Assembly: GCA_020060085.1 (NCBI GenBank)
Contig: JAGVAW010000325.1
Coordinates: 1-34,480, forward strand
From: Desulfobacterales bacterium
Lineage (GTDB): Bacteria; Desulfobacterota; Desulfobacteria; Desulfobacterales; Desulfatibacillaceae
DNA length: 34,480 nucleotides
Reading direction: 5' to 3'
Shown: positions 5,376 to 16,123 of the stretch, in pieces
How the letters are laid out: each line of letters starts with the position of its first letter
How positions within the stretch are numbered: position 1 is the stretch's first letter
Position numbers and translations under genes: made by a program
Notes under the pieces: model-generated
Told to the model about the DNA's origin: nothing
What the model saw: only the letters and a program-made list of their open reading frames with translations
Databases searched by the model: none

Positions 5376-5403
5376 TTGACAGGCTGTGCTGCTGCTCTAT
5401 AAT
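5376..5403 (+). promoter_or_regulatory. Consensus sigma70-type promoter (TTGACA-16 bp-TATAAT)
   Basis: TTGACA at 5376-5381 and TATAAT at 5398-5403, spacer 16 bp, 129 bp upstream of the ATG at 5532. Confidence 0.75.
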
Positions 5404-5531
5404 TGCAGAAGCGGGAGATAAATAGCGGCAAAACCACATTTTTTTACAAGCATATTACAGGTTCCACCTTTTTGCCGGAAAATGCTATACTTAAAGGTAA
5501 AATAAACTCCTTGCAGGGTTTTGATTGCGCC

Positions 5532-6188
5532 ATGAGCAATGCTGATTACCAGACAGAGTCCAGCCTTGTGAAAGACCTTTCCGGAGGCCGGAGAAGGACA
5601 AGAGCAGGGGCTTTATCCGTCCTTTACAAAAGGTACAACAGCTCTCTGGCCTCCTTTGCGCGGCAAAGGCTTGTTGATGCTGGCAGAATAAAAAACACTC
5701 TAACCCGCTTCTGGCTGGATGCCGTTCAAAAGGGCGCATTGGGTGATTACAAGGGCGATATCCCCCTTGAGGCATATCTTACAAGGCGGCTGGATGAATA
5801 CATCCAGCAGGAAAACCGCAGCCTGTCGCCGGATGATGAGGATCTTGCCACCCGCCTGGACCTTGAGGAGGATTATTCCGGACGCCTTTCAGATGAGCAG
5901 CGCAGGCAAAGGCAAATGGAAAGCCGGGTGCTTGGCCGCAGTCTGGCGCTTATGGTCAGGCACTTTCCCCAGGACGCCGAGCTGGTCTGGGCGTATTTAA
6001 AAGGCATGGACAGCCAGCAGATGGCCCGAAAAAGCCTTCCCCCCGGTGCCAGCCAGCGAAGTGTTGCAGACAGGGCCGCAGAGATTGAAAAGCAGCTTTT
6101 AAAGCCCCACACAGGCTCTCTTGCCCGCTTTGAAATTCTTGTGGAGCGCTGCCGCAGGCAGGAGCAGGAGGCCAAACCAAAGCTTTAA
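5532..6188 (+). CDS. Divergent sigma70-like (ECF-type) protein
   Basis: ALSVLYKRYNSSLASFARQRLVDAG...LTRFWLDAV...YKGDIPLEAYLTRRLDEYI resembles sigma region 2; C-terminal helical segment resembles region 4. ATG 5532 preferred, because the listed start (TTG 5403) overlaps the -10 element. Confidence 0.55.
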   Translation: MSNADYQTESSLVKDLSGGRRRTRAGALSVLYKRYNSSLASFARQRLVDAGRIKNTLTRFWLDAVQKGALGDYKGDIPLEAYLTRRLDEYIQQENRSLSPDDEDLATRLDLEEDYSGRLSDEQRRQRQMESRVLGRSLALMVRHFPQDAELVWAYLKGMDSQQMARKSLPPGASQRSVADRAAEIEKQLLKPHTGSLARFEILVERCRRQEQEAKPKL

Positions 6189-6204
6189 GGACAAGGCAAG
6201 CCCC

Positions 6205-7020
6205 ATGAAGTTTGAGCATATCCGATACAAGGAAATACCCTTGGGCAGCAGGGAAGGCTCTGTTGACCTCAGCACGGGTGCGCTCAAACTCATTTTTTTC
6301 AACAAGGATGAAAAACTCCGCAGCCATGCAGTAAAACACCTCACCAACCTTGCCGAGGCCCAAACCACCTGGAAGAGCCTTTCAAACGACCAGGAAAAGG
6401 TTGTGGCCAGAACCATCAAGGATTTGCAGGTTTTAGGCTGCCCCCACATTGCCCTTAAAACCCTTATCCCGCCCTGCGACAGGGGCGACTACCGCTGCAA
6501 GCTCTACGACCTGTGCACGCCCAAGGTGAAGGAGCTGGAGGAAATCTACCTTGCAGCAGTGAGGGGCTTTGTGGAGGATGCTGCCCAAGCCCCCCGCCTT
6601 GCCGAATATTTTTCCGACAGGGATGGCGAATATGCCATCACCCTCATGCCGGAAAGGCCTGTGGTCATAAAGGCAGCTCTTCTGGACAAGCAGGCTTACA
6701 ACCTAGTCACTTGCTACGGAGGCGTGGACATTAGCTTTGCCCAGATGCGGGATGCTCAGCTTGCCATGATAAGAAACGAAGCCCGCAAAAAAAACATAAC
6801 CCTGCACGAGGAGGCTGCCTGGGGTATTGAGCAAGGCCCGGCAGATGATTTTGCCGGTCAGGCCCACGCAGGAGAAAAGGCCACTGAAAATCAGAAGGCA
6901 AAAGACAAAACCCGGCGGGCAAGATTCCGTGGCGGCGCGCAATCATGGCGGCGCTATCTGGACTCTCTGGATGAATTTTCCGGCGAAGATGCAGAGGGAT
7001 TTTTTGATGACGACCTTTAA
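6205..7020 (+). CDS. Hypothetical protein of unknown family, second gene of sigma-like cassette
   Basis: Continuous ORF from ATG 6205, 16 nt after the sigma-like gene. Contains Cys motif PPCDRGDYRCKLYDLC and an acidic C-terminus. No family recognised. Confidence 0.7.
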   Translation: MKFEHIRYKEIPLGSREGSVDLSTGALKLIFFNKDEKLRSHAVKHLTNLAEAQTTWKSLSNDQEKVVARTIKDLQVLGCPHIALKTLIPPCDRGDYRCKLYDLCTPKVKELEEIYLAAVRGFVEDAAQAPRLAEYFSDRDGEYAITLMPERPVVIKAALLDKQAYNLVTCYGGVDISFAQMRDAQLAMIRNEARKKNITLHEEAAWGIEQGPADDFAGQAHAGEKATENQKAKDKTRRARFRGGAQSWRRYLDSLDEFSGEDAEGFFDDDL

Positions 7021-7100
7021 GGGATTCTGACACTTTGCTTTAGGCCCGCCGGATTACAGTTGTTGGCCGGCAACAGGGCTTTTGGTTTTACGGGCAGGCA

Positions 7101-8735
7101 ATGGCGCAAGAGCAAAAGAAAAATATCTATTGGGAAGATATTTTTGAGCGCGCAACCTTGGTTGTGAGCGACCTGGATTATGCTGTTGAAAGGCTGGCGC
7201 ATATCCGGGCAGGGGCAGGCGCGGCGGAGCCGATTTTCCGGGCGCTTTGCGCGCGCGCCAGGCTGAACCAGGCCCTTGCCCTGATGGCAAACTCCCTGCC
7301 TGATGACTACAAGACTTATTTTATAAAGCTTAAAACCTGTTTTGAGAAAAACAGCGAAAAACTTTTTGGGATAATTGGCCAAAGGCGCGAGGAATATGAG
7401 CGGATTATAAATGAACAGGGTATCAGGCAAACCCGCGCCATGAACAGGCTGTTTGAAAGGCTTTGTTTAATGGCCCAGGATGGCTTTCTTCTGGAGGGCC
7501 TTCAGACGGATGAAATCCTACGCGAGGAGGGGCATCTTTTCCTTGTTCTGTTTCAGGATCTCGCCCTTGCCCGCGAGGAGCTTAAAGCAGCCCTTGCCGG
7601 GCAAATTGACGCCACAGGGTTTTTTGGAGAATTTGACAATTTTGAAAGCGTCTTTGTCCAGAACACAAAATATTTTGCTTGTCTGGAAGACCTCTGGCCT
7701 GCTTTGGCTGACCGGCAATTCAAAAAGCCTGCATCCTGGCTGGCAAGGCCCCCTTCAACCTGCGATGTCTACCGCCCCTGGCCAGATCCGGCAAAACTGG
7801 AATCTTTTGCACGGGCTTTTCGCATGGAGGCAATTGCTGCTGCAAAAGACTGCGAAATGGCCCAGCAGACCATTGCATTGGGCAAGGGCTTTTTAGAGCA
7901 GGACAAAATACCTCAAGCTTATGAGCATCTGGATTCCTGCCGGTTCTGCCGCAAGCTTCTTCTGGATGTGAGCAGGGCCTCATCTTACGATTTGGATGAG
8001 CCGACTCAAGATATAAATATATGGCCCGACCTGGAGCAGGCCCTTGGCATTGGCGGTTTCAGGCACAAAATCTGGCAAAGGGCCAATTCCTTTAAAAGGG
8101 CTTTTGCTCCTGCCCTTGCAACAAGGGTATTGGCAGGCCTTTTGTTGATCATGCTGCTTTTTGCTGGCCTTTGGTTTGGTTTTGGGCGCAAAGTTTTTTT
8201 GGGTGAGATTGTTTCTCCGCCCTCAATGCTGCCGACTTCGGCTTTGGAAGAGCCGGATGCAACAGCCCAGCCGGGCATTGTAAAAGATTTTGAGCCTGGA
8301 GAGAGGACAATAGGGATAAGGCTTTTTGGCCGCAGCGCAAGAAGCGGCGCAGCAGGTGGAGTCATGGGCGGCCTGGCTCCGGCTCCGCTGCCGCCAAGCG
8401 GTTTCCTGCATTCCGGCGACAGCTTTCAGGTGCATTTTGCCGTGGACAAGGCCTCATTTGTTTTTGTATTTTTTTTAGATTCATCGGGCAGCATTTCACC
8501 GCTGTTAAGGGGCAAGGCCAGCGCAGGGGAATATTTTGTTCTTCCGGGCATAAACAACTGGTACACTCTTGATAATGTTGCCGGAACCGAAACCGTTTGG
8601 GTGCTTGCCACCCATAGGCCCATACCCGATTTTTACGAGCGCCTGGAACTTTTAAGGGAAAAGGGCACGGATGCCGTGGGGGAAGTTTTCCCCGACTCAT
8701 ACCGGCAGGTTTTTTCCTTTGAGCACAGGCCGTAA
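7101..8735 (+). CDS. Membrane protein with anti-sigma-like zinc motif and DUF4384-like C-terminal domain
   Basis: EHLDSCRFCRKLL (H-x3-C-x2-C, zf-HC2/anti-sigma-like), one TM helix (ALATRVLAGLLLIMLLFAGLWFGFG), C-terminal SGDSFQVHFAVDKASFVFVFFLDSSGSISPLL...LPGINNWYTLD...ETVWVLATHRP typical of DUF4384. Confidence 0.7.
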   Translation: MAQEQKKNIYWEDIFERATLVVSDLDYAVERLAHIRAGAGAAEPIFRALCARARLNQALALMANSLPDDYKTYFIKLKTCFEKNSEKLFGIIGQRREEYERIINEQGIRQTRAMNRLFERLCLMAQDGFLLEGLQTDEILREEGHLFLVLFQDLALAREELKAALAGQIDATGFFGEFDNFESVFVQNTKYFACLEDLWPALADRQFKKPASWLARPPSTCDVYRPWPDPAKLESFARAFRMEAIAAAKDCEMAQQTIALGKGFLEQDKIPQAYEHLDSCRFCRKLLLDVSRASSYDLDEPTQDINIWPDLEQALGIGGFRHKIWQRANSFKRAFAPALATRVLAGLLLIMLLFAGLWFGFGRKVFLGEIVSPPSMLPTSALEEPDATAQPGIVKDFEPGERTIGIRLFGRSARSGAAGGVMGGLAPAPLPPSGFLHSGDSFQVHFAVDKASFVFVFFLDSSGSISPLLRGKASAGEYFVLPGINNWYTLDNVAGTETVWVLATHRPIPDFYERLELLREKGTDAVGEVFPDSYRQVFSFEHRP

Positions 8736-8816: not shown

Positions 8817-9131
8817 ATGGCGGTTTACGAATACGAGCATATTCACGATGCCTGCAAAATCGGCAAGGTTTTTGAAGTGGTTCAGCCAATGGATGAAAAG
8901 CCCCTTAAAGTCTGCCCCCAATGCAAAGGGCCGGTCAAAAAGCTCATATCCCTTACCCACATCTGCATTCCTGTTTCCAACACAACATACAGGGAAAAGG
9001 GATTCACCAAGCTGGTGCGCCGGGAGGACGGGGTTTACGAAAATGTTACCCGCCGCGATGGAGAGTCCCGCTTCATGGTGCGGGACAACCCTGCCTCGGC
9101 TCCCGACATTTCCAAAATCATCACCGATTGA
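8817..9131 (+). CDS. FmdB-like zinc ribbon protein
   Basis: MAVYEYEHIHDAC...PLKVCPQCKGPVKKLIS matches the FmdB pattern; GGGAG upstream of ATG 8817. Confidence 0.75.
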   Translation: MAVYEYEHIHDACKIGKVFEVVQPMDEKPLKVCPQCKGPVKKLISLTHICIPVSNTTYREKGFTKLVRREDGVYENVTRRDGESRFMVRDNPASAPDISKIITD

Positions 9132-9166: not shown

Positions 9167-9193
9167 AGCCCGGCCTTTTTCCGGGCTTTTTTT
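9167..9193 (+). terminator. Intrinsic terminator
   Basis: AGCCCGG-cctttttt-type loop-CCGGGCT followed by a T-run. Confidence 0.8.
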
Positions 9194-12453: not shown

Positions 12454-14193
12454 ATGCGCTTTGATATCATATTTGAAAATCCGCAGATTTTTGACGGCAC
12501 GGGCCGCGCGTCTTTTAGAAACGATGTGGCAGTTAAGAACGGCAAAATCGCTGCTGTGGAAAAGTTAAATGGCGCAAAGGCCAAAACCCGCATTGATGCA
12601 TCAAAGCTTGCCTTGTGCCCTGGTTTTGTTGATGTGCATACCCATGCGGAAATGGCCCTTCATCAGCCCCAGTACGAAAAAATTGTGGAGCCGCTGGTGC
12701 GCCAGGGCATAACAACCTTTGTGGGGGGCAACTGCGGCGCAGGTTTGGGGCCTATTTCCCCTGAAAATGCCCATCATCAGTACGATTTTTACGATATTTT
12801 TCTTGGCTCGGATCAAAGGCCCTTCATCGCCTGGCAGGGCTTTGGCGAAATGCTTGATGTACTGGAAACCAAGGGCATGGTCCAGAACTGCGCCATGCTT
12901 GCGCCTCACGGGGTTATCCGTGCCCATGCAATGGGCGATTCCACAGAGCTTGCCAGGCCGGAGCACATCGCCAAAATGAAATCCGTGCTTGCCCAATGCC
13001 TTGAGGAAGGGGCAGTGGGCATGAGCACGGGGCTGATGTACTTTCCGGGCCTTTGCTCGGATGACCGCGAGCTTTTGGAGCTTGGCCGCGTTCTGCACGA
13101 CTACAATGGAGTGTTCACATCGCACTTGAGGAGCTACAATTCCGATACTATAGGCCGGGCCATTGATGAGGTTGTTGAAATAGGCAAAACCGCGCAGATT
13201 CCCATACAGATAAGCCACCTTTTCTGGGTGCCAAACCTGACGCCACCCTGGAATCTTGTCACCAAGGCCCTGATGAAGGGGGTAAGCTTTGCCTGGAACA
13301 AAAAAAACTTCCCCTTTCCTGTTGAGGCGGCCACAAAGCCATATCTAAAGCAGATTGAAAAGCTCAATTCCCAGGGCATTCCCGTGGGTATTGATTCCAT
13401 GCCCACGAGTGCGGGCTTTACCCACCTTTTTGCCTTTTTTCCGCCCTGGAGCCTCAAGGGCGGGCGCAAGGCCATATTGAAGCTCATTGCAGACCCGGCA
13501 AGCCGCAGGGAGGTGAGAAGGTCCATTGAAACAGGCGAGCCGATATGGCCCCATCGTGGAGAAAACCAGTGGTCCATGAACCTATTTAAGGTGATGGGAT
13601 GGGACTGCGCCTTTATAATGAGCGTGGCCTCCGAAAAAAACCAGCACCTTTTGGGCAAAAGCTTTGTGGAAATAGGCAAAATGGAGGGCAAGCACCCATT
13701 TGATGCAGCCTGTGACATAGCCCTTGAGGAGCAGGGCAGGGTGCTGATTTTTGAAACTCCAACTTTTCCGGGTGACGAGTTTGTTGAGCTGTCATTGAAG
13801 GGAACCCTGCTCGATAAAAATGTGAGCGTGGCCACAGACACCATCCCCATTGTTTTCGGGCGGCCGTCTCACCTTACATACGACTGCTTTCCGCGCTTTG
13901 TGGGAGGATATGCAAGGGACAAGGGCTATCTGCCGGTTGCAGAGGCCATAAGAAAATGCACTTCCCTGCCTGCCCGCCAGCTTCAGATAAAAAACCGGGG
14001 GACAATTGAAACAGGAGCATTTGCAGATCTGGTTCTCTTTGATGCGGAAAAAATAGGCTCCAACAGCACGGCCACAAACCCCGCGCATTTTGCAGCAGGC
14101 ATAGAATCGGTTTTTGTAAACGGCGTGGCAGTTGTGGACAGCAAGGGCTATCACCCGGAAAGATATCCCGGCAGGATGTTAAGGAGGCAATGA
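12454..14193 (+). CDS. N-acyl-D-amino-acid deacylase-type amidohydrolase
   Basis: CPGFVDVHTHAE metal-binding motif, GITTFVGGNCGAG, EEGAVGMSTGLMYFPG, FTSHLRSY, QISHL: D-aminoacylase family. Confidence 0.85.
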   Translation: MRFDIIFENPQIFDGTGRASFRNDVAVKNGKIAAVEKLNGAKAKTRIDASKLALCPGFVDVHTHAEMALHQPQYEKIVEPLVRQGITTFVGGNCGAGLGPISPENAHHQYDFYDIFLGSDQRPFIAWQGFGEMLDVLETKGMVQNCAMLAPHGVIRAHAMGDSTELARPEHIAKMKSVLAQCLEEGAVGMSTGLMYFPGLCSDDRELLELGRVLHDYNGVFTSHLRSYNSDTIGRAIDEVVEIGKTAQIPIQISHLFWVPNLTPPWNLVTKALMKGVSFAWNKKNFPFPVEAATKPYLKQIEKLNSQGIPVGIDSMPTSAGFTHLFAFFPPWSLKGGRKAILKLIADPASRREVRRSIETGEPIWPHRGENQWSMNLFKVMGWDCAFIMSVASEKNQHLLGKSFVEIGKMEGKHPFDAACDIALEEQGRVLIFETPTFPGDEFVELSLKGTLLDKNVSVATDTIPIVFGRPSHLTYDCFPRFVGGYARDKGYLPVAEAIRKCTSLPARQLQIKNRGTIETGAFADLVLFDAEKIGSNSTATNPAHFAAGIESVFVNGVAVVDSKGYHPERYPGRMLRRQ

Positions 14194-14197
14194 GGCT

Positions 14198-16123
14198 CTA
14201 TTGGGCATCCCTCCACATTTCCCAGGTGATCAGCGCCCACAGCCTGTGGGAGTGGTCGTGGATGCTGTTAAGGTGCTCGTTGACAACCCTGCTTACCATT
14301 TCCGGGTTGAAGATGCCTTCATCGTGCAGGCGCTTTTCTGCCAAAAGGTCTGTCATCAAAGGCTTTAGCTCGCCCTTTAGCCAGGCTGCCAAAGGAACTG
14401 CAAAACCGGCCTTGGGCCTGTCAACCAGGTTCTGGGGAACGAAGCGGTACAAAAGCTTTCTGGGCAGGTACTTGCCCCTGCCATCCCTGTAAAGGAGATT
14501 TTCCGGCAGGGTGGCGGCAAAGGCTGCTATGCGGTGGTCGCACAGGGGCAGGCGCACCTCAAGGCCGCAAGCCATGGAAGTGCGGTCCGTCTTGGTGAAC
14601 ATGGCATCAGGCAAATAGGTTTTCTGGTCCACCTGCATCAGCCTTCGCAAAATCGGCAGGCCCCTTGTGGCCTCAAATTCCTTTTCAAAGTTGGATTCAG
14701 GAACGGTTCTGCCCATCAGCTTTTCCACAGCCTCCTTTGTCCACAGGCTCACGGTGGGCCGGTAGATTTCTCGCAGGCGGTTTTCCGGCATCACGGCAAG
14801 AACCCGCGCCCATTTTTCGGGAAAGTCTCTCACTTTAAATCGCTGGGGCAGTCTGGCGGCAATGGGGTTGTAGGCAGTCTGGGGCCAGGCAGGCGGAATT
14901 ACTCCCAGAAGGGCCGCAGCAGGCCGCCTGACCCAGGCTGGTAGGGCAAAGAGATTTTTTGCAAGGCTTGCGGCCATCCAGTAGCGGACATATCCTGCAA
15001 AAAACTCGTCTCCGCCATCTCCTGAAAGGGCGACTGTAACCTTCTGCCTGGCCAGGGAGCAGACCATGTGTGTTGGAATTGCCGAAGGGTCTGCAAAAGG
15101 CTCGTCAAACATTATCGGCAGCCGCTCCACAAGGGCAAGGGCATCTTTTGGAGAGGCGTAGAGCTGTGTGTGATCCGTATCCAGATACTTTGCCACAGCC
15201 CTTGCATAGGGGGCCTCGTCCAAATCTGCCTGGGAAAAGCCTATGGTGAATGTGTTGACCCGGCAGCCGGCTTCCCGGCGCATGGCCGCCACCACAAGGG
15301 TGGAATCAACTCCGCCGGAAAGAAGCGCGCCGATCGGGACATCCGAAACAAGGCGATCGCGAACGGCAGTGCGGAGGAGAGTGTCAAGAGTGTTAAGCGC
15401 CTCCTGCTCGGAGGGCGGTCTGGAATCCTGGGGCGAAATTTCCGGAAAATCCCACCAGCGTTGGATTTCTGTGCCTTTGCCGTCAAAAACCGCATAGCAC
15501 CCGGGCGGCAATTTTTTTACATTTTTAAAAATGCTGCGCGGGCCTGGAACATACTGAAAATGCAGGAAAAGGGCCAGGGCATCCATATCCGCGGGGCCGC
15601 AGATGCTCCCCAGGGCTTTTATGGCCTTCAGCTCGGAGGCAAAGGCAATAAAGCTGTCCCCGTCTGCATAATAAAGGGGCTTCACCCCCATGCGATCCCT
15701 TGCAAGAAAAAGCTTTTTTTCCTGCTCATCCCAAATGGCAAAGGCAAACATTCCAAAAAGGCGGTTAAGGCAGCCCTCCATGCCCCATTGCCGGTAAGCT
15801 GCAAGCACCACCTCGGTATCGGTGCCTGTTGTAAAGCCAATGCCCAGTTGTTCAAGCTCATTACGGATGGAGATAAAATTGTAGGCCTCGCCGTTGTAAG
15901 TGATAACAGCCCTGCCGTCCGGCGACTTCATGGGCTGGTGCCCGGCAGGGGAAAGATCCAGTATTGAAAGGCGGCTGTGCCCCAACCCCAGGCTGTTTTG
16001 CGGGTCAAGATGTATGCCGGAATCATCTGGCCCCCGATGGGCAAGGGACAAAACAGCATCAGGAAGTTTTTTGGCAAGGGCGGCAAAATCCTTAAAATTG
16101 CAGAAGCCGACTATTCCGCACAT
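14198..16123 (-). CDS. asnB: Asparagine synthase (glutamine-hydrolysing)
   Basis: MCGIVGF class-II amidotransferase N-terminus, HRGPDDSG, YNGEAYN, LLSGGVDSTLV, ALSGDGGDEFFAGY. ATG 16123 places the catalytic Cys at position 2; the GTG at 16129 would not. Confidence 0.93.
   Translation of the reverse strand: MCGIVGFCNFKDFAALAKKLPDAVLSLAHRGPDDSGIHLDPQNSLGLGHSRLSILDLSPAGHQPMKSPDGRAVITYNGEAYNFISIRNELEQLGIGFTTGTDTEVVLAAYRQWGMEGCLNRLFGMFAFAIWDEQEKKLFLARDRMGVKPLYYADGDSFIAFASELKAIKALGSICGPADMDALALFLHFQYVPGPRSIFKNVKKLPPGCYAVFDGKGTEIQRWWDFPEISPQDSRPPSEQEALNTLDTLLRTAVRDRLVSDVPIGALLSGGVDSTLVVAAMRREAGCRVNTFTIGFSQADLDEAPYARAVAKYLDTDHTQLYASPKDALALVERLPIMFDEPFADPSAIPTHMVCSLARQKVTVALSGDGGDEFFAGYVRYWMAASLAKNLFALPAWVRRPAAALLGVIPPAWPQTAYNPIAARLPQRFKVRDFPEKWARVLAVMPENRLREIYRPTVSLWTKEAVEKLMGRTVPESNFEKEFEATRGLPILRRLMQVDQKTYLPDAMFTKTDRTSMACGLEVRLPLCDHRIAAFAATLPENLLYRDGRGKYLPRKLLYRFVPQNLVDRPKAGFAVPLAAWLKGELKPLMTDLLAEKRLHDEGIFNPEMVSRVVNEHLNSIHDHSHRLWALITWEMWRDAQ

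Follow-up and report, generated by a model that had tools for sequence, protein, structure and literature searches.

We examined a 34,480-nucleotide stretch of DNA (contig JAGVAW010000325.1, hereafter the window) from a draft Desulfobacterales genome (3.36 Mb in 349 contigs) of the family that includes Desulfatibacillum, and focused on a cassette of three genes, g1, g2 and g3, which may form a switch in which a membrane-bound anti-sigma-like protein holds back a sigma factor of the extracytoplasmic function (ECF) type. A sequence-only reading of this DNA had described three adjacent, co-oriented genes behind one consensus promoter, and we found all three open reading frames in place, each on the plus strand downstream of a single sigma70-type promoter:

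5376..5403, plus strand: sigma70-type promoter, TTGACA-N16-TATAAT, with 12/12 consensus matches and kept in the sister-species locus L024
5532..6188, plus strand: g1, predicted divergent ECF-type sigma factor of 218 amino acids (aa), from TIGR02937, Sigma70_r2 in homologs, a PDB profile and hhalign
6205..7020, plus strand: g2, orphan conserved protein of 271 aa, with no Pfam, NCBIfam or PADLOC match, with invariant residues, and with a predicted local distance difference test score (pLDDT) of 73 in AlphaFold2
7101..8735, plus strand: g3, membrane anti-sigma-like protein of 544 aa, from motifs, profile matches and an AlphaFold2 model

The start of g1 is the ATG at 5532, and both this start and the length of the protein are kept in the sister species; an alternative TTG start at 5403 falls at the -10 hexamer. 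The 50 bases 5' of g1 (leader 5480-5531, GGAAAATGCTATACT..AAAGGTAAAATAAACTCC) are near-identical in the sister species, and the leader possibly holds a second regulatory element.

Homologs of g2 were present in 10 and homologs of g3 in 11 of 59 relatives. A phylum-wide sample of 395 genomes returned cassette homologs in the host family only, and a pattern scan of ~85,000 species recovered 11 loci, nearly all from Desulfobacterales or its families. Overall, we found the trio in roughly a dozen genomes of Desulfobacterales and in no other group. The g1-g2-g3 order is retained in most loci and across several Desulfobacterales families, and g1 adjoins the g3 cassette in most loci that have enough sequence on either side; g1 was not detected in the loci of genomes G002, G008 and G026. 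Conserved co-occurrence of all three genes, a check proposed in the sequence-only reading, was thus borne out. Because the adjacent trio is conserved, its grouping reflects more than chance, and mean pairwise identities of ~26-38% among the homologs indicate a real, old module. A phage or plasmid origin was rejected, as no cassette match was found in viral contigs, phages or plasmids. In Desulfatibacillum, two small helical, phasin-like genes lie on the opposite strand between g1 and g2 (L041:9022-9870).

The first gene had been read as a divergent sigma70-like protein, and four comparisons agree on this assignment. The window copy weakly matched the NCBIfam sigma70-ECF superfamily model TIGR02937 (E=0.0018, below the curated cutoff), Pfam Sigma70_r2 was matched by 4 of 8 g1 homologs (best 1e-4), a g1 family profile matched ECF sigma factors in the PDB (E=1.3e-4 and 1.4e-3), and in hhalign, region 2 of the g1 profile aligned with the profile of CASP-sigma (E=7e-5). 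The sigma4 helix-turn-helix was matched by Sigma70_r4_2 in 2 of 8 homologs, with a best of only E=0.042. Based on these profiles, g1 is predicted to be a divergent ECF-type sigma factor. A Pfam match of g1 to MPAB_Lcp_cat (E=3e-4) was discarded as spurious, being below cutoff and present in just 2 of 8 homologs.

The third gene was dissected with motif and profile searches and an AlphaFold2 model (mean pLDDT 74.5), which gave the following parts:

7131..7715, plus strand: N-terminal helical bundle of g3, aa 11-205, of no known family (pLDDT mostly 76-95)
7851..7949, plus strand: anti-sigma zinc motif of g3, C251-x24-H276-x3-C280-x2-C283 (motif scan; zf-HC2 in homologs)
8109..8180, plus strand: predicted transmembrane (TM) helix of g3, aa 337-360 (hydropathy 2.48 at aa 343; helix in the model)
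8310..8729, plus strand: DUF4384-like beta-sandwich of g3, aa 404-543, predicted periplasmic (PF14326, E=3.8e-4 at aa 437-507)

An anti-sigma-like finger, a TM helix and a DUF4384 domain had all been proposed for g3, and each was recovered, the finger as a full C-x24-H-x3-C-x2-C motif. This motif is exact in 8 of 12 g3 homologs, arises in 1 of 5000 shuffles of g3 and is surrounded in the model by four helices (aa 230-297); zf-HC2 was matched by 2 of 8 homologs (best E=0.0037). Class-I anti-sigma domains that bind zinc are recognised by the signature Hx3Cx2C, and membrane proteins make up ~65% of the class-I anti-sigmas (PMC7406223). DUF4384 was matched by all 8 g3 homologs scanned (best 7e-8); the window copy scored 20.9 bits (Pfam cutoff 27), with pLDDT ~90 across most of aa 431-543. 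Foldseek searches with g3 returned mostly generic Ig-like/RhoGDI/CBM sandwiches as top matches, none significant, and sequence-based searches found no structural relative of g2 or g3. Together, these motifs and matches suggest that g3 carries a class-I/ZAS anti-sigma domain followed by a single TM helix.

This arrangement resembles ECF sigma factors with membrane class-I/ZAS anti-sigma factors of the RseA, RsiW and RskA type, in that the sigma factor adjoins an anti-sigma and that, in g3, the anti-sigma domain precedes a single TM helix and then an extracytoplasmic domain. Unlike these pairs, g3 has an extra ~200-aa helical bundle before the anti-sigma domain and DUF4384 as its outer domain, and the cassette has a conserved third gene in between and frequent CHAT/caspase linkage (see below). 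The full zinc motif, the cysteines of g2 and the sulfate-reducing, anaerobic hosts would also suit a cytoplasmic redox- or metal-responsive switch of the RsrA/ChrR kind, in which the g3 finger loses zinc and g1 is released with no protease involved. However, in membrane anti-sigmas zinc often has a structural role (PMC7406223), two loci (L029 and L030) lost the zinc ligands and kept the remaining architecture, and such a switch would leave both DUF4384 and the protease linkage unexplained; we therefore consider it very unlikely.

For g2, the sequence-only reading had described an orphan protein with a CX7CX5C cluster and an acidic tail. The orphan status held, since no family was matched in Pfam, NCBIfam or PADLOC; the spacing did not, and the acidic tail is genus-specific. 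The cluster is instead:

6439..6516, plus strand: cysteine cluster of g2, C79-x11-C91-x6-C98-x5-C104, its four cysteines invariant in 12/12 sequences

Because the spacing in several homologs is C-x2-C-x5-C, the four-cysteine cluster is a probable metal site. Further invariants over the 12 sequences are H41, K44, H45, K156, N166, T169, Y171, E192 and W206. A Foldseek search gave nothing significant (best E=0.05 in PDB and 7e-3 in BFVD), the top matches including a contact-dependent inhibition (CDI) toxin complex and HigB-family toxins in PDB, with a JAB-domain protein of a phage leading in BFVD. That g2 might have a BECR/RelE-like core with an inserted cysteine site is no more than a guess. If g2 were such an RNase and the effector of a defence or toxin module, g1 and g3 would be accessory or would regulate only the module, a picture that fits the invariant H/H/K/T/Y set, the toxin and JAB-domain proteins among the non-significant structural matches, and a PBECR3-like gene near one locus. 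Yet no nuclease-family profile matched g2 in Pfam or other profile searches, every structural match lies above E=1e-3, no immunity-type partner was found, and the phage and plasmid records searched held none; of all the explanations considered here, we give this one the least credence.

The cassette can also be compared with the CASP-sigma (RpoE)/Csx31/Csx30 module of type III-E CRISPR (Craspase), in which Csx30 acts as a bound inhibitor of CASP-sigma and is cleaved by Csx29 (PMC10028731; PMC9729208), and in which a single complex holds Csx30, Csx31 and RpoE (PMC11106740). Both consist of a sigma factor, a middle protein and a large protein with an N-terminal domain, a linker and a C-terminal domain. 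Moreover, in Desulfococcaceae HSG8 (L043) the cassette is followed by TPR-CHAT and gRAMP genes, and its gene order (g1-g2-g3'-TPR-CHAT-gRAMP) matches the rpoE-csx31-csx30-csx29-gRAMP of D. ishimotonii (L080); this occurrence of the cassette at the rpoE-csx31-csx30 position is new here. Over 747 aa, the HSG8 CHAT protein (907 aa) is 27% identical to the Csx29 of D. ishimotonii (E=4e-67), and it has the catalytic His and Cys motifs; two overlapping frames of the HSG8 gRAMP matched PADLOC gRAMP (2e-135 and 3.5e-239). A Csx30 profile that matched in four type III-E genomes had no match anywhere in HSG8, and no CRISPR array and no csx31 or CASP-sigma homolog was found on the HSG8 contig. The N-terminal domain and zinc motif of g3 are kept in g3', and another, soluble C-terminus replaces the TM helix and DUF4384. 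The split of the HSG8 gRAMP over its two reading frames (L043:7237-12544) reflects a frameshift or an assembly error. The cassette differs from the CASP-sigma module in that g2 and g3 are not similar to Csx31 and Csx30, g1 has general ECF similarity only, most cassettes lie outside CRISPR loci, and most g3 proteins have a TM helix and DUF4384.

Recruitment of the cassette into CRISPR looks derived, because in a g1 tree HSG8 clusters with two cassettes that are not beside gRAMP. Among ~12 genomes with strong gRAMP matches, the full cassette is present in three and N-terminal fragments of g3 in a fourth; the cassette itself occupies a type III-E location at the HSG8 locus only, and the window cassette lies elsewhere, in a genome with no gRAMP and no Csx30. 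The fragments are two truncated g3 N-terminal domains with the same end residue (L081:3-593 and 13535-14215) on both sides of a type III-E locus of canonical content (csx30, rpoE, csx31, csx30, TPR-CHAT and gRAMP). Four further gRAMP loci (L082, L083, L084 and L085) had no recognisable csx30, csx31 or CASP-sigma on the stretch fetched, and these type III-E loci may use yet other substrates.

Outside Desulfatibacillaceae, each of the four loci with enough flank (L032, L043, L047 and L049) has a CHAT or caspase gene no more than ~1 kb from the cassette, a linkage that is likewise new here. A TPR-CHAT gene, the sole CHAT gene in the 4.3-Mb G009 genome, lies 14 bp from g3 in L032, and another lies 1 kb downstream of the cassette in L047, where g3 lost its TM helix and kept DUF4384. 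L049 has a caspase gene directly downstream of g3 (L049:12273-13991), clear by hmmscan yet missed by a whole-genome PF00656 search, and the N-terminus of its product resembles a signal peptide. The two loci with a same-strand, predicted cytoplasmic TPR-CHAT neighbour (HSG8 and L047) are those whose g3 lost the TM helix. From the CHAT/caspase counts of those genomes, the crude chance of a 4/4 linkage is ~5e-8, an estimate that assumes random placement and enters L049 with one caspase, taken from its own locus. Between g3 and the TPR-CHAT gene of L047 lies a gene for a 96-aa PBECR3-like protein (L047:12577-12867; E=0.0017, below cutoff).

Across the phylum sample, DUF4384 occurs mostly in exported proteins, several of them fused to or beside caspase/CHAT proteins. 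g3 shares its C-terminal domain with DUF4384 proteins that have caspase or CHAT partners and, as in DUF4384-caspase pairs, a caspase gene is the immediate downstream neighbour of g3 in L049 and of the gene for a g3-like HEAT-TM-DUF4384 protein in L034; unlike them, g3 has an anti-sigma motif, which was found in no other DUF4384 protein sampled. In L034 (L034:5112-9564), the zinc motif is absent, the large caspase protein has a CsgG/FlgO-like part, and there is no g1 or g2. The claim that DUF4384 proteins are often near sigma factors was not supported, with 2 sigma-like neighbours in ~28 sampled loci. The proposed caspase/CHAT link fared better, as it stands in four other lineages and at the type III-E locus, though not at the window. 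A defence-like role, also proposed, agrees with the use of the cassette in one type III-E CRISPR locus; at the window, with no CHAT or caspase gene nearby and no CHAT gene in the genome, we can only infer such a role. The single caspase-domain protein of the window genome (L093) is encoded on another contig (C251) and appears to be exported and to have no catalytic cysteine, the segment ILILSDTLFSE looking substituted.

The cassette could instead encode an ordinary envelope-stress ECF/anti-sigma pair, with DUF4384 sensing an envelope signal, general site-1/site-2 proteases degrading g3, and the CHAT/caspase neighbours incidental in defence-rich genomes. In favour of such a pair, all Desulfatibacillaceae loci, including the window, are without a linked protease, DUF4384 lies within exported proteins in most sampled loci, and the membrane topology of g3 is typical of regulated intramembrane proteolysis. 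However, it would not account for a clan-CD protease gene being adjacent in 4/4 loci outside the family, once as the genome's only CHAT gene, and it would leave the HSG8 operon and the C-terminal swap unexplained. We thus regard an envelope-stress pair as unlikely.

We consider it probable that the cassette is a proteolysis-released ECF sigma/anti-sigma switch and a functional counterpart of CASP-sigma/Csx30. Position, domain logic and protease linkage agree, and by analogy g3 most likely restrains g1 until g3 is cut, as Csx30 does with CASP-sigma. Specifically, g3 would be the membrane-tethered anti-sigma factor of g1, its cytoplasmic part (i.e., the helical bundle and ZAS-type domain) binding g1 and keeping it off RNA polymerase. 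A cut in the g3 linker near the membrane would then free g1, or a complex of g1 with the N-terminal part of g3, and turn on a regulon; g2, at the gene position of Csx31, is probably in the same complex. In several lineages the cutter would be a cognate protease of clan CD from a neighbouring gene: TPR-CHAT where g3 is soluble, and a predicted exported caspase where g3 is membrane-bound. In HSG8 it would be the Csx29-type TPR-CHAT beside gRAMP, and the cassette would there serve an RNA-guided protease as its output arm; in the family of the window it would have to be another, unlinked protease, perhaps the general intramembrane-proteolysis enzymes.

Several points weigh against this proteolytic switch. 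No convincing ECF-type autoregulatory promoter motif was found upstream of g1, the window copy of g1 matched no Pfam sigma model, and the g3 zinc ligands are absent in both Desulfatibacillum copies (L029/L030). Homology of g2 and g3 to Csx31 and Csx30 was rejected (no hidden Markov model match; hhalign probabilities 0.1%). The CHAT gene of L032 is convergent and not co-transcribed with the cassette, the CHAT gene 0.8 kb upstream in L049 is a 143-aa fragment, and the proximity test was framed after the loci were seen. The loci of the host family have no linked CHAT/caspase protease, and in the window genome no protease was found near the cassette. Finally, the case is built on comparative genomics: the genes, their motifs, conservation and neighbourhoods and the C-terminal swap are observed, and from these we infer binding, cleavage, sigma release, a regulon and the role of g2.

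Our broader proposal is more tentative, and we hold it with some doubt: the cassette could be a plug-in sigma/anti-sigma circuit, independent of CRISPR and set off by caspase/CHAT-family proteases, that evolved apart from Csx30/CASP-sigma. At least once, a type III-E Craspase would have recruited it for its output arm, with the membrane/DUF4384 part exchanged for a soluble protease substrate.

Two further features lie 3' of g3, outside the conserved cassette, and the first is possibly co-transcribed with it:

8818..9131, plus strand: FmdB-type zinc-ribbon gene (PF09723, E=2e-9)
9167-9187: terminator-like hairpin, after the FmdB-type gene

The natural output of Craspase, a programmable protease, comprises Csx30, Csx31 and CASP-sigma and is understood only in part. 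With the cassette comes a new candidate substrate of Craspase, and Desulfatibacillum alkenivorans DSM 16219 is a cultured strain for finding the regulon. An unrelated yet positionally equivalent cassette, found mostly outside CRISPR and often by caspase-like proteases, points to protease-to-sigma signalling as a general alarm architecture of bacteria, one that CRISPR was plugged into.

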